Of a DNA stretch of 64,000 nt, positions 3,617-20,852 are shown piece by piece. The DNA is from Sulfuracidifex tepidarius (lineage in GTDB: Archaea; Thermoproteota; Thermoprotei_A; Sulfolobales; Sulfolobaceae). Location: positions 124,001 through 188,000 of the forward strand of contig NZ_AP018929.1 in NCBI RefSeq assembly GCF_008326425.1, given 5' to 3'. Numbering within the stretch: the stretch's first letter is position 1; each line of letters begins with the position of its first letter. Below the pieces are notes generated by a model. It did no database searches. It had not been told where the DNA came from and was given only the letters and a program-made list of their open reading frames with translations. The translations under genes and the position numbers were made by a program.

Positions 3617-5122
3617 TTGGACAGACGATCCCTAATAATTTCAATTTTCCTTTTATTTCTCTACATTTCCCTAGTTCCCGTGTTGACTTCGTCTCAGACC
3701 GCAACACAGACTAGCTCAGACACGTCCTTCATACCCCTTAACTTCACACCTGTCTCACTGTCTGTCATGAACGGCAACCTCTTAGTAGCGTCGAACAACG
3801 AGGTATACCAGTACCAAGGTGGTAACCTGACTCCTTTCCTTCACGTGAATAACATTCAGGAGATAGCGTCTTCTGCTCAAGGAGTGTACGTGGAGAACTC
3901 GTCTGGGCTGTACTACTATCAACAAGGAGTGCTAACCCCTCTGCACGTAATGGCGGGGAAGCTGTTCTTCGATAACTTCACTGGGTCTCTCTACGCTACG
4001 TGTGGATATGACGTCTACGTGTTTCAGGGCTCTAAAATGGTACAGAACTTCAGCGTCTATGAGAGCTTTGGCTATGTGACCTTCAACTCCAAGGAAGCCA
4101 TAGTGGACAGCCAGAACGGATTTGCTATCTATTACTACAATGGTTCATTTCATTGCACTATAGACTACCAAGACGCGCTATGCGCAATGACGTTTTACGG
4201 CAACAAGTTCGTAGCTGGCTCCTTCGATCCCATAGGGGTTTTCGTTTTCAATAACATCAATGTTCTGTATGACAAGGTAATTCCGGTGATTTACCTGGAC
4301 CAGTTGTCCGAGTACAACATGTCATTGGTGTGCACTAACGTACTTCCCCAGTACATGCTTGTCCATAACGGACTGATATATACGGGATCGTCGAGGGGAA
4401 TAGCTGTGATCAACACTAATGACAGTCAGGTGGTATATTACAGCCCTAGCCCTGCTTATTCGATGGTGGAATACCACGGGAAAGTCTACGTCGCTACAAA
4501 CGGCGGTATCATGGTTTTGAACGTCAAACCGCTCCCCATTTTTTACGTTACCTTAGTCAGAGAAGGAGGACCTCAGAGCGTCTTCTTCACAGTCAACGGG
4601 TCAATGAAGGAAATGAGCTTCTCTTGCACTATCCCGCTTGAGGAAGGGGTCTATAACTTCACCTTCTTCAATGATACGGACTACCACGCTGAGAACTCCA
4701 CTATGATTGTGAGGGTAGACTACAACACCACTTTCACAGTTAATTACGTAGGAGTACCGGAGGTGTTATATATCAATCTTCCTCAAGGTGTCAAGGGAGA
4801 CGTATACGTTAACGGTACAGAATATCAAGCAGACGGACTAACTAAGATTATCCTACCTTACGGCGTTTACGATCTGAAGGTCGAAGCTGGAGGAGAGGAG
4901 TTCAAGTACACTGTATTCCTAACTGATGACACCGTGATCACTCCAAATGTGCACATTACGTCTAGCGTTAACGTCAACACCTCATCTACAAGCGGAGTTC
5001 CTAGTACCCAAACTGTCTCTTCAGTCACATCGTCAAATAGCTTCACTTTTATAGCTATAGTCGCAGTATTCGTAGTAGCTCTGGTCATGATCTTACTGAT
5101 ATATCGTGCTTCAAGAAAGTAA
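3617..5122 (+). CDS. Membrane-anchored extracellular protein, beta-propeller-like
   Basis: 501 residues, TTG start 4 nt after the preceding stop. There is a cleavable-looking signal peptide (about 1-25), a long extracellular part with repeated short units of the type 'GNLLVASNNEVYQY' and 'GKVYVATNGGIMVLN' that suggest a beta-propeller (about 30-310), a second beta-rich region, a Ser/Thr-rich stalk (about 440-472) and one C-terminal membrane helix followed by RASRK. That is the usual layout of a crenarchaeal wall-anchored protein. It is probably the last gene of the operon, since the next 480 bp are non-coding. Function unknown. Confidence 0.72.
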   Translation: MDRRSLIISIFLLFLYISLVPVLTSSQTATQTSSDTSFIPLNFTPVSLSVMNGNLLVASNNEVYQYQGGNLTPFLHVNNIQEIASSAQGVYVENSSGLYYYQQGVLTPLHVMAGKLFFDNFTGSLYATCGYDVYVFQGSKMVQNFSVYESFGYVTFNSKEAIVDSQNGFAIYYYNGSFHCTIDYQDALCAMTFYGNKFVAGSFDPIGVFVFNNINVLYDKVIPVIYLDQLSEYNMSLVCTNVLPQYMLVHNGLIYTGSSRGIAVINTNDSQVVYYSPSPAYSMVEYHGKVYVATNGGIMVLNVKPLPIFYVTLVREGGPQSVFFTVNGSMKEMSFSCTIPLEEGVYNFTFFNDTDYHAENSTMIVRVDYNTTFTVNYVGVPEVLYINLPQGVKGDVYVNGTEYQADGLTKIILPYGVYDLKVEAGGEEFKYTVFLTDDTVITPNVHITSSVNVNTSSTSGVPSTQTVSSVTSSNSFTFIAIVAVFVVALVMILLIYRASRK

Positions 5123-5609
5123 CTTTATTTTCTTAATATTCGTATTTTTTATAATTTGATAATATAATTTGTTACTTGATTCTTTTTTAAAGAAACAGAG
5201 ATAGAAGTTAGACCTCGAATTCAGCATTAGTCCCGTGCGAGGGGATGAAGGTCTCCTCTTACAAGAGGTGAGCCTCATGAAGTTATTCCTGCCCTTTTTA
5301 AAAATCCAAGATATTTTTATCTTGTGAATATTTCATGACATTCAGGTCGTATAGGATTATTACTCTTTAATTACATTTAACTCTCAATTTGAGGAGAAGT
5401 TGTTAGATTGATAACTAGACAGACTAGACAAATGAGGTCTAAAAAGACTATAATGAGGATCTTGCGGTTCGCAACGGTGACTGAAGCTCTAGAGCGTTGA
5501 TCCCATCTATAATACGCAAACTTCTATAAAATTCTTTTTTACGTTAGATACTTGGAAGGTATCTCGGTAGCTGATGTCTATTTATCAGCTATACGACCTC
5601 TTTTTTTAC
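5123..5609. other. Intergenic region with IS605-like left-end remnant
   Basis: No convincing gene. A T-rich stretch just after the preceding stop could act as an archaeal terminator. Bases 5238-5268 resemble the structured left ends seen near 13840 and 44340 (see the separate entry). The rest is AT-rich with no recognisable RNA. Confidence 0.5.
5238..5268 (+). repeat. Possible solo left end of an IS200/IS605-like element
   Basis: The stretch reads as a CCCGT-spacer-GGGATG-GTCTC pattern that also occurs at 13859-13885 (CCCGTCAGC...GGGATGGACGTCTC) and 44351-44380 (CCCGTCAGG...GGGATGGATAGCTCC). In those two places it sits at the left end of an element. No matching right end was found nearby, so this may be a decayed solo end. 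Short similarity; chance is not excluded. Confidence 0.35.
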
Positions 5610-9937: not shown

Positions 9938-10422
9938 CGAGTTAGATTAATAAGTATTGCTTATATGAAAGAAATCGAGTTTATGTAAAGAAAATAACAT
10001 AAAACTGATAAGGAAGTGATATAAGGCAAGTATTACTGTTCAGGCACGAGAATAGTAAAACTCTACATGATTTGAATGAGGACTTTTCTAAAATAATTCT
10101 CTAGAAATGATAGATCAAATGGGAAAACTTTATATAGAATCAAAATATAGGCGCTCATAGATATAAAAGATAATATTGAAACGTATATCTAAATATTTAG
10201 CATCATACTATGAAATATAATAACTCTTTCATGCTTATTAAGCTATGTGTTTTCATTGTTAACAATAATTTTTAACTGTATATTATAGTTGAGTCGTATA
10301 TATTTTTAAATTGGACTGGAGAGAGCTAATTAAATTAAAAGTTAGATGAAAGCAATTCTCAAGGCGTAGAATATCAAGTCTATTCCCATACTTTCAATTA
10401 TATTCATCCGGGCTCGTCTGAC
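9938..10422. other. AT-rich intergenic region, no gene seen
   Basis: About 485 bp, very AT-rich, without a credible ORF or RNA. A short stretch CTTTCAATTATATTCA near 10394 recalls the start of Sulfolobales CRISPR repeats, but there is no second copy. Confidence 0.4.
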
Positions 10423-11337
10423 TTAAAATTCCTTTAGTGAGGAGAGGAGAGAGTTGTCTACCTCCACGTATCCAGACCTCTTTATCTCATTCATTATCTT
10501 CAATCCGTGTCGGCCCGGAAGCTCTTCCCATGGGACGTGTTTGACCTCATGGTGGTAGTTGAACATGATTAAGACTTCACCCTTGTTAGGTCTCTTAGAC
10601 GTGTCCAGGACCCCGACGACGTTCTCTGACAGTTCAGAGCCGGAGATAGTAGCGGTGAGCATGTCTAGGAAAAGGGATAAGAAGAACCCTTTCTTTCCTC
10701 CTATAGGGATGATCCCGCCCTTGAGTGCCAGGTCTGGGTCGTCAGTCTCCTTTCCGTCTGGACCTACTGCCCAGCCTAGAGGTATCCTCTCTCCCCTCCT
10801 TTTAGCCTCTAGTATCCTTCCCCTTGAGGTAGATGCGAGGGACATGTCAAGGACCACATCAGGCGGTATTCCTATACTTATGGGAGAAGTGGACAGTATC
10901 CTCCTCGATGTACCCGGAGCTACGACAGACGGCTCTGCGTTTCCGAACATGATGGAGGGTATACCTGCAGAAGCTAGTCTGGAAGTGTAATAACCTAAGT
11001 AGCCAATGTGGGAAGAGTTCCTGACTGCTATCATGAACACGTCAGAATCCCTCCTCTCCCTGATAAGGAGGTCCCAGACTACTATTCCTATGGAGGAATT
11101 GCCGTCTACGAACTTGGAGGAGTCGGTCTCCCTCTCTACCTTGAAGTCTAGGTGACTCTTTATTGTCCCAGCGTCCAGACCTCTCAATAACGGGATCATC
11201 CTCTGTATCCCGTGTGAGGAATGCCCCTTCATCTCGGCCTCGAGGAAATGGTCAACTACTACCTCCGACCCTTGGACTCCCCTCTTCTCAAGGAGTTCCA
11301 GGAGGAACTGTCTCAGCTCATCAACCTTTACCTTCGT
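10423..11337 (-). CDS. Malate/L-lactate dehydrogenase-type (Ldh_2 family) oxidoreductase
   Basis: NAD(P)-dependent 2-hydroxyacid dehydrogenase of the family that includes sulfolactate and ureidoglycolate dehydrogenases. Visible signatures are GHSSHGIQR (active-site His region), VRNSSHIGYLGYY, the STSPISIGIP segment and the glycine-rich IPIGGKKGF. The first ATG in frame is 11232, but the frame stays open upstream and encodes a typical family N terminus (KVKVDELRQFLLELLEKRG). That stretch begins at ACG (11337-11335) and contains no ATG, GTG or TTG. I annotate from the ACG, giving about 304 residues; the 269-aa form from ATG 11232 would lack the N-terminal helices. The 5' end overlaps the GDPD gene by 17 bp, so it is probably in an operon with the two upstream genes. 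Confidence 0.75.
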   Translation of the reverse strand, partial: TKVKVDELRQFLLELLEKRGVQGSEVVVDHFLEAEMKGHSSHGIQRMIPLLRGLDAGTIKSHLDFKVERETDSSKFVDGNSSIGIVVWDLLIRERRDSDVFMIAVRNSSHIGYLGYYTSRLASAGIPSIMFGNAEPSVVAPGTSRRILSTSPISIGIPPDVVLDMSLASTSRGRILEAKRRGERIPLGWAVGPDGKETDDPDLALKGGIIPIGGKKGFFLSLFLDMLTATISGSELSENVVGVLDTSKRPNKGEVLIMFNYHHEVKHVPWEELPGRHGLKIMNEIKRSGYVEVDNSLLSSLKEF

Positions 11338-13410: not shown

Positions 13411-13800
13411 ATGGGTCTATTCAAGATAGTGACGTTAATTGTTCTCGCGTTGGTCATAGCTACCCTCTTCACGGTCCTTTTTTTGATACCAATAGATCAG
13501 ACCTATCAGGTAACCATGAGGCTTTCTCCACTGCAGAGGCATTTCTTCATATTTAACGATAGTTCAGGTACGACTACTAAAATAAGTGTGGTTGAGAGCG
13601 GAGGTTATGTAACGCTAACATTGATCTCACCGACGGGAGAGAAAGTGTTAAATGGGGTGGAAGTGCATTCTTCCTATACCTATACGTTCACCGCGAGAGG
13701 GACAGGGACGTATACGCTGTGCGTACTGAACTCCCCGCTTTATAATACCAACATCACATTGAACGTGGTGAAGGAACACAGTCTGATCGATTTCCTGTGA
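13411..13800 (+). CDS. Single-pass membrane protein with GOLD-like domain
   Basis: 129 residues: a hydrophobic anchor (about 5-28) and a beta-sandwich-like extracytoplasmic domain. The C-terminal part (YTFTARGTGTYTLCVLN...ITLNVV) matches the closing G-x-Y-x-x-C/F-x-x-N pattern of GOLD domains, as in eukaryotic p24/emp24 cargo receptors. A diverged paralogue is encoded at 43588-44019 with the same layout. A role in surface or vesicle protein handling is inference. Alone on the plus strand with its own promoter. Confidence 0.65.
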   Translation: MGLFKIVTLIVLALVIATLFTVLFLIPIDQTYQVTMRLSPLQRHFFIFNDSSGTTTKISVVESGGYVTLTLISPTGEKVLNGVEVHSSYTYTFTARGTGTYTLCVLNSPLYNTNITLNVVKEHSLIDFL

Positions 13801-14171: not shown

Positions 14172-14729
14172 TTGCAAGGAGAAAATAATCCTATCGAGAA
14201 GGATCTCTATAAGCTTGGAGAAGACTACATTGAAGCTAGAGTAATTGAAACTCTGTCCGACTTACTCCTCTCCCTTACCTTGTGGAAGGAAGGTTATACT
14301 AGGAACTCCGCTGGAAAAGCTTTCAGTGCAGTGAAGGCATTGCTAAATGCGCTCATATTAACTAATGAAGAGAAATTAGTCAATTTGGCCAAGGACGACC
14401 GGGAAAAGGAGTGAATCAAAGAGAAGGCACATGTAATCCCTACTCATAGTATGTATGGGTTGGCACAAGCACTGAAGGATACAGGGATTGATATTATAAA
14501 CCTTGTGAAATATGCTCTAGACCTTCATAATTATCAGTATAATGGCTTTAAACCTGACTTCAGCATATACAGTAGAAAGCGGGACGTGTTGAGAGACCTA
14601 TTTACCGTAATAAAGGAGACTAAGAAGGCAATAGAAACCTATTTCCCTAAGTACGAAGTTAAGGAAATTTCGGAAAAGATTGATGAGGTACTAAAGGATA
14701 TGGACGATAGAGATGTACATGCTACTTGA
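14172..14729 (+). pseudogene. PaREP1-family gene split by one in-frame UGA
   Basis: Two ORFs in the same frame (14172-14414 and 14451-14729) are separated only by the stop at 14412-14414; reading through gives one continuous protein of about 185 residues. The N-terminal half (KDLYKLGEDYIEARVIETLSD...EGYTRNSAGKAFSAVKALL) is characteristic of the PaREP1 family, a crenarchaeal group with a HEPN-like helical fold. The UGA stands between KE and IKEKAHVIPTHS, a place where Trp (UGG) would fit. Start TTG 14172 is uncertain. The flanks are IS-derived debris and another gene fragment. Confidence 0.7.
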
Positions 14730-15214: not shown

Positions 15215-16255
15215 ATGGAGGATCTTAAGGACTGTTTAATGTCAAAGTTCAGCAAGTTAATGGGTGATAAGACAAGTTTACCGGTTCTTACCCTGATTCT
15301 CTCCCTTCTTGAGTACAGGACGTGGGGGTGTGTAGACTTCTCGATAAATTCGATAGAAATGTTGCTGTCGTCTGCAAGGAGGAGGATGACCATAGTAGAC
15401 AGGGAATCGTTCGATTCCTTGATTCAGGAAGTGAAGCAGTGTTTCAAAGACTCTAGATGTGAAGGAATAGACCACTCAGTATGTATCCAAGACATCCGTG
15501 ACGTTGTACAGCTCACGTCAATGAACTTGAGCAACGTTGAGATTAAATCGATCATGAGAGGGAACGTGGACGACAGGGTCCTGAAGTTACTCAACTCCGG
15601 AAGAAAAGAGGAGGGGGAGATCGCGTCAGCGTTCGAGATATTGAAGGAGGACTATGAGCTTAACAACGAACTGATGGAGAGGATAGTAAACGACTTACCG
15701 GTGACAGTGGTGAAGCCGGAGTTCACTCTCGAACACTCCACCAACAACGATAGGGTAGTGCACTTCGTAATGCCAAAACAACTTTTAGAAGCCCTTTCCT
15801 CTGGAACCAGCAGGAATGAAGTGGGACTGGAGGAGTCGATCTCTTTCCTTTTAAGTAAACTTGGGTTTTCGGTTACTTCCAGGGAAGTTGATGTACCCGG
15901 AGAAGGGAGAGTGAGGATAGACCTGATAGGCGAAAGGAACTCTACGAGGATTAAAAACAGGGTATGGGTCTTCACTTCGCCAAAGGACAGGGAGTGCACC
16001 GTGAACGACCTAAGAAACGTCCTCAACTCGGTCGTGATAACCAGGGAGATTCCCAATCTAGTGTTCGTGGTGTGTGGAGGTGGGGACGAGAAAGTCCTCT
16101 CATTAGCTCACGAAATAGGAGTCCATGTCCTCAGTCGAGAGAACGCTGAGAGGGAGATGTTTTACTCCTTCCTCGACTCCTTGCCTGTCTTCAGGGACCT
16201 CTTTGAGAAGATAAGCGACATCTCGGACTTAATCACCATTTACAAACTGAAGTAG
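15215..16255 (+). CDS. Unknown protein with nuclease-like (REase-fold) C-terminal domain
   Basis: 346 residues, no membrane segments. The N-terminal 200 residues are mainly helical. From about 205 the pattern EESISFLLSKLGFSV...GRVRIDLIGE...NRVWVFTSPKDRE, then a VVITREIPNLVFVV strand and HEIGVHVLSRENAERE, follows the order of Mrr/archaeal Holliday-resolvase-like folds. An Asp sits where the metal-binding residue is expected (IDLI), but the usual E-x-K is replaced by FTSPK, so catalysis is doubtful. The neighbours are mobile-element remnants; a similar C-terminal pattern occurs in the ATPase at 18985. Fold call is by eye only. Confidence 0.6.
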   Translation: MEDLKDCLMSKFSKLMGDKTSLPVLTLILSLLEYRTWGCVDFSINSIEMLLSSARRRMTIVDRESFDSLIQEVKQCFKDSRCEGIDHSVCIQDIRDVVQLTSMNLSNVEIKSIMRGNVDDRVLKLLNSGRKEEGEIASAFEILKEDYELNNELMERIVNDLPVTVVKPEFTLEHSTNNDRVVHFVMPKQLLEALSSGTSRNEVGLEESISFLLSKLGFSVTSREVDVPGEGRVRIDLIGERNSTRIKNRVWVFTSPKDRECTVNDLRNVLNSVVITREIPNLVFVVCGGGDEKVLSLAHEIGVHVLSRENAEREMFYSFLDSLPVFRDLFEKISDISDLITIYKLK

Positions 16256-16706
16256 ATAAAAAACACGTAGGATTTTCCGATAAAAGCTATCCGACAAAAG
16301 CTAATCGAGAATAGAGCTGTAGCTCTTATTCTCCTGATGGGTTAGAGGGGACAGAAGGCCCACTTAGTCTTCTTGAAGCCTCCACTATCAGTGGCACAGT
16401 CCTTGCTAATAAGGAATTGAAAAGAATAAGTGAGGTCATTGAAGGCGTTTTGATCTACTAGAACTTTTGGCTGGAGATTAGACTTCGGACTGTGGGTCTA
16501 GAAGAGACGATCCTCGGTCGAACCTGAACTCTAACGTCTAAAATCTACTGGGGGAAATCTATCATGAAATATTTCAGTTAAAGAGAGAGAAAAATAACAT
16601 GCATTTACGAGAACTTCGAGGCGTTTCCCTGTCCGCTATACAGCTTGAACTTGAGCTTAAAGGAAACTCTTTTCTAATACTCTGATTAATAGTAGCATGT
16701 TAAATC
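16256..16706. other. Intergenic region with hairpins and possible IS remnant
   Basis: About 450 bp without a credible gene. A strong inverted repeat (GAGAATAGAGCT...AGCTCTTATTCTC, 16307-16333) could form an RNA hairpin shortly after the gene at 15215. A second small stem, CCACT-ATC-AGTGG near 16402, preceded by TGAAGCCT, recalls IS605-type right ends. Confidence 0.4.
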
Positions 16707-17396
16707 ATGCTAAATGACTTCTCAATTTCACTGGAGGACTATTATGATCAATTTCATGATAAGAAATATAAAAACTTCCCTATAGAACTATTAGAAAAAA
16801 TGCGGGAGTATCTCGTTAAAAAATACGAGGAGAATATCATTTCAATAATGGAATCTACTCTGTCTTTATTAGGAGGCAACGAAGAAGAGGCACCTGAGGT
16901 GTTAGACAACGTAAACGAAATAGGAGAAGACATAAAGCTCTACAATTCCATCATAGAGCATAACACCACTATTGGACAATATAGGGATATTATAATAAGA
17001 GGGCTTGAAAAACTAATTGAGTCATTAAGCAAAAATGAGGATAAGTTCTGGAAAGAAGTAATGAACTCCTCCTCATTAAACTTTCAAATAACTATATATT
17101 ATTCTTTGTATCTCAAGTTTTTAACAAAAGCCTATCTGAGACTAACGGAGTTAAAGGTGGATCCTAACATGAAGACTGCAGAGTGTCCAAAGAAGAGGAT
17201 CCTTGGTGCTGTAAATTCGTTGGTGGGAATTTTAGGAACCCCTCTGATCATGTATGTTAAGGAAAATAGGATATACCCCTACATCTCTGATCTGACAGGG
17301 ATTCTTTTATATGTGACCAAAGACGAGGTCTTACCCTCAGGAAATTCTCTAGGTTATTATCTATTTTCTAGAATTCATGGTACAGAAAATGAGTAA
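16707..17396 (+). CDS. Unknown helical protein, partner of PIN-domain gene
   Basis: 229 residues, predicted mostly alpha-helical, with an acidic middle (GGNEEEAPEVLDNVNEIGED) and no membrane segment or known motif. DNA and codon use are more AT-rich than in neighbouring housekeeping genes, suggesting acquired DNA. It overlaps the start of the PIN-domain gene by 20 bp, so the two were probably translated together. The pairing recalls toxin-antitoxin or effector pairs, but the protein is larger than typical VapB antitoxins. Function unknown. Confidence 0.6.
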   Translation: MLNDFSISLEDYYDQFHDKKYKNFPIELLEKMREYLVKKYEENIISIMESTLSLLGGNEEEAPEVLDNVNEIGEDIKLYNSIIEHNTTIGQYRDIIIRGLEKLIESLSKNEDKFWKEVMNSSSLNFQITIYYSLYLKFLTKAYLRLTELKVDPNMKTAECPKKRILGAVNSLVGILGTPLIMYVKENRIYPYISDLTGILLYVTKDEVLPSGNSLGYYLFSRIHGTENE

Positions 17397-18259
17397 TAAG
17401 CCTACTAATACTGCATACATATTTGATACCAATGCAGTGATCACCTGGTTATATTACAATGATGATAAGAAAAGGAAATTGGCTGAGTCCATCGACAAGC
17501 TAAACAACTGCTACATTTTAGTCTACACGATTGAAGAGGTTCTAGGAATAATCTCTGATAGCTATAAACTATTCTCTCATATTATCATATGTGAAGTCCT
17601 ACGAAACGACAGCTGGGATTCCCTGAAAATTTCTGATAGATTAAGAATAATAGAGGGCATTGAAAAGGACTTCGAGGAGCACTATGAAAGGATATGGGAG
17701 ACATATTACAAAGATAGCATCCCCCACGGTCATATAAGGGTGTATATCTCTAAGTTATTCTTTAAGGCGTATAAAGAAAGAATATTAAGGTATAAAAGAT
17801 GAGGATATAGAGGAAGAGATTACTACAAAGAGAAATGCAAAGGGTCTAGAAGACTATGCAAATTCAGTGATTAACCTTATCGCAAGTAAGTTTAAGATAA
17901 TAGGGCACGTTCATTTTAGCACAGATATGCTAGTGGAACTTCAATTAATAGAGGAGGGAATACAGAACAACAGAAAAAATAAGAACAAAAAGCCTAGTAG
18001 GTTTGATCAAATAATGTTCAAATTGGTTTATATAATATTAAGAAATTAAATTTTTGATAGAGTAATTTTTGTCACTAACGATGACGATTTCTCGAATATG
18101 CGTAACAATATTGTAGAACTGTTAGAAAATATTATAAAAAACAGTTCGAAAATAACAATTAATACATCTGCAGAGAATTGTAAAGATATATTGACTAATG
18201 AATTGGAAATATTTGATATCGATAGACTATTTCAAGTCATTAATGCGGGGAAAATCTAA
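17377..18259 (+). pseudogene. PIN-domain nuclease gene inactivated by a frameshift and a stop
   Basis: The first part (17377-17802) begins AYIFDTNAVITWLYYNDD, the PIN N-terminal Asp motif. A 1-bp shift in the A-run at about 17793-17798 moves the frame; reading on gives DEDIEEEITTKRNAKGLEDYANSV and continues to a UAA (18047-18049). In the same frame after the UAA comes FDRVIFVTNDDDFSNMRNN, the C-terminal PIN motif (TND..DF), ending at UAA 18257-18259. The rebuilt protein is about 290 residues, longer than VapC. AT-rich like its partner gene. Sequencing error at the A-run is possible, but two lesions make real decay more likely. Confidence 0.7.
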
Positions 18260-18595
18260 GGTGGGATATCTCATATTTAAAGAATGTCTTTCTAATATTT
18301 CTAAGGAATTTATAACCTTCTGCTCGTAACTGGAAGTTATAATCCCTCTTCTTTCAGCTGCAGCTACTAGAAGAGCTGACATACAATTAACCCACCGTAT
18401 TCGGACAGACATATTTTACTCAAAGTCTCAAAAGCTCTAGCTAAGTTGAAAGATCTTTTGATACTCTAATACTCTAAAAGCCTTACGTCAGAAAAGAACG
18501 GCTCCTTGTCGCTCTGTAGCTTATCTTATATATTAAGTGCTTTTTCAAAAGTGTTAGAGAATCGCTGAGAAAGTTTCATTTAGGTCTCCATGGAC
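18260..18595. other. Intergenic region, no gene seen
   Basis: Follows the PIN pseudogene. A weak minus-strand ORF (18227-18412) reads SALLVAAAERRGIITSSYEQKV, which could be a scrap of a small toxin-antitoxin gene, but it is too short to support. Confidence 0.35.
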
Positions 18596-18750
18596 GATTC
18601 GCGTCTCCTTTGCGAATTCAGTTTATTTATAGAATTAGAATGAATTTAATCAAACGCTCTAGTATAGACTGGGTGAGGGTTCGCGCTTAGCAGTTTCCTT
18701 TATTTGGTCTATTTTTGCTATAATTACAATTTAAGATGGAAACCTGAATT
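18596..18750 (+). repeat. Dispersed 155-bp repeat, copy A (MITE-like)
   Basis: Aligns over its full length with 24841-24993 at roughly 80% identity by eye, in the same orientation. The ends carry imperfect inverted sequences (GCGAATTCAGTTTATTT near the left, GGTAATTCAGGTTTCC read from the right), and the element has no ORF. Size and ends fit a miniature inverted-repeat element of the kind known in Sulfolobales; the mobilising transposase is not in the window. Confidence 0.65.
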
Positions 18751-18984
18751 ACCCCATATCTTTCAGACGAAATAATTTGGTGAAACAACAGTGAAAATAT
18801 CCTCTTGCTATTCCTATATTCGGCTACTAAAGTAGCCCGGCCTACCTTATCTTGATCTAATGAGAGATATCAAGAAAGGAAACATGAGAACATGCAGAGG
18901 AAGAGCGAAACGATCACAAAAACGTCTTAAGAGTCCTCTACAAAGAAGACTTTCTTCGACAAGGCTTCACGGCAAGGGGCAACT

Positions 18985-20334
18985 TCATGCTGGCTGTTCG
19001 GCCTCCTGGGTTTGCTGTAGTTCTAATGATCTGACTTTCAATGCTTTCCTCAGCTTCTCTATGAGGATGTCCAAGTCACCGTCTATTATCCTCAGCGCTT
19101 CTATTGTACTTAGCTGTATGAAGTTATCTCCGGTCACGTTAGCGTTAGTGATTACAAACTTACCTTCCACCTTGTACTCCTTCTTCTCATGTTCTACCGT
19201 GTTCACGGTAAGGAAGCTGTCCACATCTACCTTGTCAGGCAGATTGCCGTCTTTCGACAGCTTGACAGTGCCTATGAAGGCTCTGTCGTCGCTGATGAAG
19301 AATATGGACGCTAGGACGCCCCTTCCGTTAGCGTCGAATACCCTCTTACCCCTAGGGTGTAGGTACTTTATGGAGAGCTCCGCTGTGAGAAGCGAAAGGG
19401 CTTCCCTCACTCTCTTCTCCATCTTGGACGTTTCCTCTATTGGGTCCTTCAGTGACATCGACTTCTCCACATATCCCCTCAAGCACTCCAGCGAGTTCCC
19501 GCATTCCTTTTCAGCCTTCTCGGACTCAGACCTCAGGAACTGCAGGATCGAACTTATGGATGGCAATTCCCTTCCCTTCCACAGTAAGTTCACCATGGGT
19601 AGTAGAAGGTCTCCGAACTCACCGCAGTAAGTCTCCACTATCTCCTTGACGTCCTCCTCAGTCACCCCGTCGTCTAGGGATATCCTGCTCTCCTCTATCC
19701 TCCTGCGGAGAGCTAAGTCCTCTATCCTGCTGAACGAGTCCGTCGGTATGGCCATGATAATGGGTATGTTCAACCCAGCGTTTATTACACGGTGTATCAA
19801 GCTCAGGTGAGTGTCCCTCACCTCGTCTATCAGTAATCCTATCTTGTGGCCTTCCTTCAGGTCCCTGATCAGGGATATCATCCCGTCATAGTTGTGTGGG
19901 TAGTTCATGCAGAAGAGCCTCATGTCTAGGTCGTCGGCTTTCCCGCACATCTTCTCCACGTGATCCCAGAACTTGACCCCCATCAGTTTCTTCCAGAAGT
20001 TGTATCCTAACTCTTTCTTTCTGTTCTCGAGCTTTGAGATGGACTCTTTCCTTATCTCCGTTACGTCTATCTTCGTCCAGAACTCCGAGGATAGGTCGTC
20101 CTTGTTTGCCATATCGAGGAAGATCGGTTTCATCCATTCCTTGGAACTCTCCTCCAGCTTCTTCAGGATCGTCGTCTTCCCCATCCCAGGCTGGCCTATT
20201 ATGGAAGCGACCTGACCTTCCTTCATCAGGGATAAGCTCTTCTCATAGTATTTCCTGTAAGTTGGCCCGGCTAATACCACGTTCTTGACGCTCCACGTAG
20301 TCACGGTTACCTTGGGAATCTTACATAAGGTCAT
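18985..20334 (-). CDS. AAA/STAND-type ATPase with unusual C-terminal domain
   Basis: 449 residues. Walker A GQPGMGKTT at 47-55 and Walker B IGLLIDEV at 165-172 lie in a Cdc6/Orc-like P-loop domain, followed by helical lid-type sequence with RRRIEES (sensor-like arginines). The last 120 residues (GVLASIFFISDDRAFIGTVKLSKDGN...KFVITNANVTGDNFIQLSTIEALRIIDGD) resemble an Mrr-like fold in which the catalytic E-x-K is GTVK. It starts inside the stop of the winged-helix gene (ATGA, 20331-20334), so the two form an operon. A DNA-binding regulator/ATPase pair for defence or replication of an element is inference. Confidence 0.7.
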   Translation of the reverse strand: MTLCKIPKVTVTTWSVKNVVLAGPTYRKYYEKSLSLMKEGQVASIIGQPGMGKTTILKKLEESSKEWMKPIFLDMANKDDLSSEFWTKIDVTEIRKESISKLENRKKELGYNFWKKLMGVKFWDHVEKMCGKADDLDMRLFCMNYPHNYDGMISLIRDLKEGHKIGLLIDEVRDTHLSLIHRVINAGLNIPIIMAIPTDSFSRIEDLALRRRIEESRISLDDGVTEEDVKEIVETYCGEFGDLLLPMVNLLWKGRELPSISSILQFLRSESEKAEKECGNSLECLRGYVEKSMSLKDPIEETSKMEKRVREALSLLTAELSIKYLHPRGKRVFDANGRGVLASIFFISDDRAFIGTVKLSKDGNLPDKVDVDSFLTVNTVEHEKKEYKVEGKFVITNANVTGDNFIQLSTIEALRIIDGDLDILIEKLRKALKVRSLELQQTQEAEQPA

Positions 20335-20852
20335 TTCTTCTCACCCTTCTTCCTCTTTATTATGCCGAACAGGACGCCTTTCCTCACGTACCCGTCGTCT
20401 CCGCCCGCTATCATTTCGTAGTTCTCCTCAATGTGTCTCCTGAACTTGCTGTAGAAGTCTTCCTTGGACATCCCAAGCTCTATCCTGATCCTCTCAAGGG
20501 AAGCGTAACCTAGGGAATCACTTATCCTCTGGTAAGCCTCGTCAAAGGAAGCGTAATCCACCTTTGCTTTGCTCTCCTTCAGTTCCCTCACTTCTTCCTT
20601 AAGTGATTTCACCTCGTTCATTAGGGTCTTTATCACGTCGTCCGCTCTTTCTGTCATAACTGGAGAGAAAGATCTGCCTGACCCTGAAGTCTTCTCGCTT
20701 ACCTTATTTTCGTTCTTGAGCTCAGCCAAGGCTTTAAGTAACTCGGAGCTATCCCTTATCCCTAGCCTCTTCTTAAGCCTGGAGAGAGAGACCGGCTTCC
20801 CTTCCTTGTGGTATGTGTCCTTGATGAGTTGTAGAACAGTTTCCTTGTCCAT
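20331..20852 (-). CDS. Winged-helix protein with coiled coil, partner of AAA ATPase
   Basis: 173 residues. Residues 1-60 (KETVLQLIKDTYHKEGKPVSLSRLKKRLGIRDSSELLKAL) look like a winged-helix DNA-binding domain, about 70-100 is a Lys/Glu-rich coiled coil (LMNEVKSLKEEVRELKESK), and the C terminus (SLERIRIELGMSKEDFYSKFRRHIEENYEMI) is a second helix-turn-helix-like unit. It is probably a dimeric DNA binder. The stop overlaps the ATPase start by 4 bp. No named family recognised. ATG 20852 is the natural start. Confidence 0.7.
   Translation of the reverse strand: MDKETVLQLIKDTYHKEGKPVSLSRLKKRLGIRDSSELLKALAELKNENKVSEKTSGSGRSFSPVMTERADDVIKTLMNEVKSLKEEVRELKESKAKVDYASFDEAYQRISDSLGYASLERIRIELGMSKEDFYSKFRRHIEENYEMIAGGDDGYVRKGVLFGIIKRKKGEKK

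Follow-up and report, generated by a model that had tools for sequence, protein, structure and literature searches.

What does a two-gene unit do when its ATPase appears to have kept the ATP site and lost the active site of the nuclease fold at its C-terminus? The question is raised by two overlapping genes of Sulfuracidifex tepidarius that lie in the window, i.e., the whole stretch of 64,000 nucleotides analysed here, which corresponds to positions 124001–188000 of contig C1 of a 2.56 Mb genome. The features concerned, including those of a neighbour that had been grouped with the pair, are listed below by position in the window; A-type denotes the window's own lineage of the ATPase and B-type a second, related one.

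15215–16255, plus strand: 346-aa protein with a putative, degenerate Mrr-like C-terminal domain (nucleotides 15797–16252)
18985–20334, minus strand: A-type ATPase of 449 aa, nSTAND3/AAA_22-like P-loop NTPase with a C-terminal nuclease-fold domain
19045–19443, minus strand: predicted PD-(D/E)xK-fold domain, residues 298–430, catalytically incomplete (AlphaFold2 domain model and Foldseek)
19261–19269, minus strand: T356-V-K358, replacing (D/E)-[VI]-K (alignment)
19306–19308, minus strand: S343, where all B-type homologues keep the catalytic Asp (alignment)
19822–19827, minus strand: acidic Walker B pair D170-E171, unchanged in 40 of 40 homologues
20173–20196, minus strand: Walker A GQPGMGKT, residues 47–54 (comparison of 40 homologues)
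20331–20852, minus strand: two-winged-helix partner of 173 aa, 5' of the ATPase gene with a 4-base overlap (phrog_38850, MarR-like PDB matches)
20346–20567, minus strand: C-terminal winged helix of the partner, residues 96–169, found in viruses along with the coiled coil (tblastn, tree)

The ATP site is strongly conserved, since residues G47, P49, G50, G52, K53, and T54 of Walker A are, like the Walker B pair, unchanged in all 40 homologues. The best Pfam families across the ATPase members are AAA_22 and nSTAND3; the window protein scores 20.9 against nSTAND3 (gathering cut-off 27.2), and two B-type proteins, L062 (40.1) and L068 (29.8), exceed this cut-off. The top structural matches of the full-length model are archaeal ORC1/Cdc6 and STAND (NB-ARC) ATPases; however, sequence comparison does not place the protein clearly in either, and a C-terminal nuclease fold takes the place of their winged helix or repeat sensor. 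OLD and PARIS systems resemble it in that an ATPase is fused or coupled to a nuclease, but these combine an ABC-type ATPase with a TOPRIM nuclease, and the window protein, which joins an nSTAND3/AAA_22-like ATPase to a PD-(D/E)xK fold that is devoid of an active site in the A-type, is not a member. No specific match to the ATPase was obtained in PADLOC, NCBIfam, or PHROGs, and the ATPase itself was absent from the results of virus and plasmid searches. Five cysteines (C4, C130, C237, C278, and C284) are unusual in that they vary little or not at all among the ATPases of either type and, judging from the sequences, could form a metal site or disulfides.

The C-terminal domain (residues 290–449) was folded separately by AlphaFold2 together with three relatives, the structure prediction covering these four sequences only. 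Comparison of the window model (pLDDT 85, pTM 0.80) with the PDB by Foldseek returned mostly PD-(D/E)xK proteins (probability up to 0.99), among them R2 endonuclease, Bax1, McrC, Can2, R.BspD6I, MGME1, and AF1548, as well as spliceosomal entries containing the dead Prp8 domain. The E-values of these matches are modest (0.002–0.1), and the assignment therefore also rests on the motif in the relatives. In the motif region, VLASIFF...FIGTVKLS of the window protein faces VIVDLYF...YIGDVKLSN of the B-type L060; the catalytic Asp aligns to S343 and the acidic residue of (D/E)xK to T356, while K358 and the helix-1 residue E306 are retained. The protein has the fold of the superfamily but not its catalytic D...(D/E)xK residues, and a PD-(D/E)xK fold without an active site is confirmed for this domain as far as model and alignment can tell, in agreement with the initial annotation, which had described the end of the ATPase as nuclease-like with E-x-K lost. 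Prp8 retains a catalytically dead PD-(D/E)xK fold as a structural part. The likeness to the A-type ATPase lies in the keeping of the dead fold; Prp8 is otherwise an unrelated protein in an unrelated process, which serves only as a precedent for a dead nuclease fold that works. For the S. islandicus protein, a C-terminal PD-DExK domain has been assigned independently (PMC11065993).

The partner matches phrog_38850 with an E-value of 8.8e-20, and its family profile leads to MarR-like PDB matches. The 4-base overlap of the two genes bears out the translational coupling of the ATPase to a two-HTH coiled-coil protein that had been noted at the outset. At every one of the 40 full-length loci, the partner adjoins the ATPase, always on the upstream side, with a gap of −26 to +8 bases. 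All 40 loci hence have the layout of toxin–antitoxin (TA) and abortive-infection systems, in which the genes overlap or adjoin and a small DNA-binding partner comes first; an intact catalytic domain in the would-be toxin is lacking in the A-type, whereas the B-type has the motif. A shared palindrome upstream of the partner, which could serve as an autoregulation site, was not found. Most A-type promoters contain a GTAWTA element (−47 to −51) that recurs in five genera (e.g., L037, L041, L051, and L052) and resembles the GTAWTACC element over the cdvA start codon region in most genomes. It is missing from the window and the window's genus and, having been mined from the same data, survives correction only marginally; for these two reasons it is given no weight and is retained as a lead only.

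Among the 214 genomes of the order that were searched, those with the full-length ATPase are all Sulfolobaceae, and a phylum sample agrees. The A-type, 38–81% identical to the window's protein, occurs as one copy per genome in 27 of 31 Sulfolobaceae genomes, and the pair is not the island feature of this stretch that it had been taken for. It is not strictly universal, being missing in G180, G197, and G198 and in the incomplete G202, and its chromosomal position varies between genera. The B-type (29–35% identical to the window's ATPase) is found in 15 genomes, about half of the family, and coexists with the A-type in many of them. In the midpoint-rooted tree of 40 loci, the 25 A-type rows stand apart from two B groups, which hold the other 15 rows, and cluster by genus with the exception of L053; the A-type is, as this tree indicates, mainly vertical in inheritance.

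The alignment of the same 40 rows separates the two types by their motif. The complete D...(D/E)xK is present in 15 of 15 B-type proteins, all of which have D-x(n)-(D/E)-[VI]-K plus an invariant helix-1 Glu, and in 0 of 25 A-type proteins. The residues lost differ among A-type genera (DVV, LVK, QVK, and TVK), and L055, the deepest A-type row, reads D...DVR, a pattern consistent with a motif that was lost on the A-type stem or shortly thereafter and whose freed positions then drifted. Loss, not gain, is the probable direction since the motif is ancestral in the superfamily. Most A-type proteins retain part of it (K358, or the D of DVV), and L043, L047, and L054 each miss just part of the triad, so that unusual catalysis is conceivable. 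Purifying selection acts on the dead domain: in six A-type pairs with measurable dS (that between the window and its sister species is saturated), dN/dS is 0.016–0.18 for this domain and 0.02–0.17 for the partner, and it stays below 0.2 in both ATPase domains.

The B-type behaves differently in exchange between genera. When B and A copies of the same genomes are compared across genera, the B copies are the more similar (82.6 vs. 54.6%, 65.1 vs. 49.9%, 59.5 vs. 51.4%, and, in a fourth genome pair, 51.6 vs. 48.5%). For genomes of one genus, by contrast, B-type identity is equal to or below that of the A-type. These identities indicate that the B-type moves between genera, and the inter-genus pair L056/L059, with dS near 0.17–0.23 and dN/dS of 0.45–0.58, suggests that a transfer took place recently and was accompanied by rapid change. 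The window's own genome contains a decayed B-type ATPase remnant (G000:C1:552764-553147, about 6764–7150 in L075), which consists of the nuclease part only and has an in-frame stop, with D..DIK still legible. Some B-type loci lie beside cas3 genes or PIN toxins; enrichment of the B-type in defence islands is not significant (PIN neighbours at 4 of 15 B-type vs. 2 of 25 A-type loci, p=0.17).

Viruses have captured the partner from the B-type. ARV3 (gp05), ATV2, and one uncultivated viral contig encode its coiled coil and C-terminal winged helix, with neither the N-terminal winged helix nor an adjacent ATPase; tblastn of the partner matched residues 79–167 in ARV3 and 96–167 in ATV2. The contig (UViG L081, Sulfolobales, 50 kb) carries its partner mimic at 4965–5288, flanked by sequence with short-piece matches to known Sulfolobales viruses. 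The ARV3 and ATV2 genes are 59–70% identical to the B-type partners of L063 and L068–L070, and the L081 gene is 58–66% identical to those of L060, L061, L064, and L066, which are likewise B-type. The viral genes sit in B clades of the tree (best identities 65–70%) and none in A; the tree thus requires at least two viral captures, both from B-type clades. The ARV3 and ATV2 genes have been reported as ADG.51 and proposed to oppose a host abortive-infection system (PMC11065993); if this counter-defence proposal is true, the opposed host system would be the B-type. According to the same paper, ADG.51 retains the N-terminal wHTH, whereas the alignments obtained here correspond to host residues 79–167, i.e., the coiled coil and C-terminal wHTH. 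The mimic in L081 is not named in its main text.

We propose, with somewhat more confidence than doubt, that the window's pair belongs to the A-type as the disarmed branch, passed on vertically, of a two-gene module of Sulfolobaceae, and that it works as a complex that is bound to DNA and controlled by ATP but does not cut. Derivation of the A-type from a mobile ATPase–nuclease module is well supported; its present function as a non-cutting, DNA-bound ATP switch is what we infer. In the ancestral design, which would survive as the mobile B-type, a two-winged-helix coiled-coil protein would hold or steer a second protein, in which a STAND/ORC-like ATPase is joined to a PD-(D/E)xK nuclease. Once triggered, probably by a virus or by foreign DNA, the ATPase may switch and the nuclease cut, and the viral partner mimics may antagonise this assembly of winged-helix dimer and ATP-driven nuclease. 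On or soon after its stem, the A-type would have lost the catalytic residues while keeping the ATP site and, under selection, the fold. The partner would then supply sequence specificity, the dead nuclease fold an added contact to DNA or protein, and ATP binding or hydrolysis would set assembly. The earlier idea of a fold that binds DNA without cutting holds as regards the missing motif, and the binding itself is presumed. The role of the A-type would be chromosomal, in regulation or in chromosome or cell-cycle housekeeping, rather than in DNA destruction.

Cran1, a class 5 OLD-family ATPase–nuclease found in Sulfolobales, appears to be essential, has a role in the cell cycle, with which it is also expressed, and showed no antiviral effect when tested (PMC12796447). 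This defence-family enzyme turned core cell-cycle protein makes a housekeeping role of the A-type plausible, as a precedent only. If our proposal is true, the A-type would be the second Sulfolobales case, after Cran1, in which a defence-type ATPase–nuclease became a core protein, here via loss of the active site; what resembles a weapon would seem to have become a core component of the cell. The initial annotation had named a known chromosomal housekeeping operon as the finding that would speak against a new system, and this applies in part, as the pair is indeed conserved and core-like. A fuller version, which we advance only tentatively, is that a mobile antiviral ATPase–nuclease module was disarmed at about the time when Sulfolobaceae arose and is now a chromosomal DNA-binding ATPase that is essential or nearly so (e.g., in controlling the chromosome or the cell cycle), while the relatives that remained armed still circulate and are mimicked by viruses.

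It is rather unlikely, in our judgement, that the A-type is instead a non-cutting immune factor, i.e., a STAND-type sensor, a guard or buffer to which partner proteins of viruses or of the B-type bind, or a silencer of foreign DNA. Such a factor would be in keeping with a P-loop domain that is nearest to nSTAND3 and, in structure, to ORC/NB-ARC proteins, with B-type paralogues that share many genomes with the A-type, and with domains common to the A-type and the viral mimics. However, near-universal conservation without exchange is unusual for a defence gene, and no viral mimic derived from the A-type was found.

The pair is not undescribed, as had been supposed, since SiRe_2373/SiRe_2374 have been put forward as a hypothetical antiviral abortive-infection/TA system composed of arCOG03737 and an AAA ATPase/PD-DExK fusion (PMC11065993). 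SiRe_2374/SiRe_2373 and ADG.51 share the two-wHTH partner family and the ATPase–PD-DExK fusion with the genes studied here, the identity being taken from the description and not from sequence, and ARV3 gp05 and the ATV2 gene are viral homologues in both analyses. Extended to the A-type, the published proposal would require an active ATPase–nuclease toxin with a winged-helix antitoxin; it has in its favour the overlapping two-gene order with the DNA-binding partner first and the partner homologues carried by viruses. We regard it as improbable for the A-type, in which no member has the full catalytic motif, whose single copy per genome and vertical pattern are unlike a mobile TA module, and from which none of the viral mimics come; it fits the B-type well. 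Whereas all host pairs are counted in PMC11065993 as a single system with a nuclease, the common host copy is here nuclease-dead and the viral genes match the B-type. The hypothetical defence system would be split into two branches, one armed, mobile, and targeted by the viral mimics, the other disarmed and part of the core, and the two are predicted to differ in the outcomes of knock-out and virus challenge. The literature searched contained no experiment on any member of the pair and nothing beyond PMC11065993 on Saci_1228/1229 (tags inferred from position) or SiRe_2373/2374; as far as it shows, it is new that a core lineage without its weapon stands beside a mobile one that is armed, with viral capture from the latter only. 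That the A-type is a functionless, decaying relic of a former mobile element, as the vanished catalytic residues and a split PaREP gene and weak PIN gene nearby might suggest, is scarcely credible given the low dN/dS in both domains and the partner, the invariant ATP site, and frames that are open in every genome carrying the pair.

The disarmed two-gene module probably does not extend to the 346-aa protein that had been grouped with it. This protein has no direct match in Pfam; hhalign aligns the C-terminal domain (prob 91%) with intact Mrr-like nucleases of a Thermoproteota family that passes Pfam Mrr_cat. Its counterpart of the D...ExK active site reads RID...VFTSPK, in which the D is kept and FTS stands at the E-x-K position, so that the loss of E-x-K had been recognised correctly; a relative in G073 has WIDCSK. 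A common origin of the two dead C-terminal domains was considered and rejected, as hhalign gives no signal between them. At useful similarity, the 346-aa protein is found in two of the 214 genomes of the order, both of the window's genus (62% identity), with weak domain matches only elsewhere. Its gene lies on the opposite strand from the pair, past a 229-aa gene without relatives and the weak PIN gene, and its orientation relative to the pair is reversed in the second genome. In the sister species G201 (L036), a TnpB-like gene (10147–11295) lies between the ATPase gene and the 346-aa gene, and the stretch carrying the 346-aa and 129-aa genes is flipped compared with the window. Membership in the pair was rejected because the gene is genus-specific and its relative orientation is not kept; it is probably an unrelated neighbour. 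The description of the surroundings as mobile-element scraps with a toxin-like gene is a fair one, as they include a PaREP1/8 family gene split into two frames (14172–14729) and the PIN gene. Near the 346-aa gene, both genomes encode a 129-aa membrane-anchored protein with a GOLD/emp24-like domain (13411–13800 in the window), whose Pfam match lies just under the cut-off in the window and passes it in G201.
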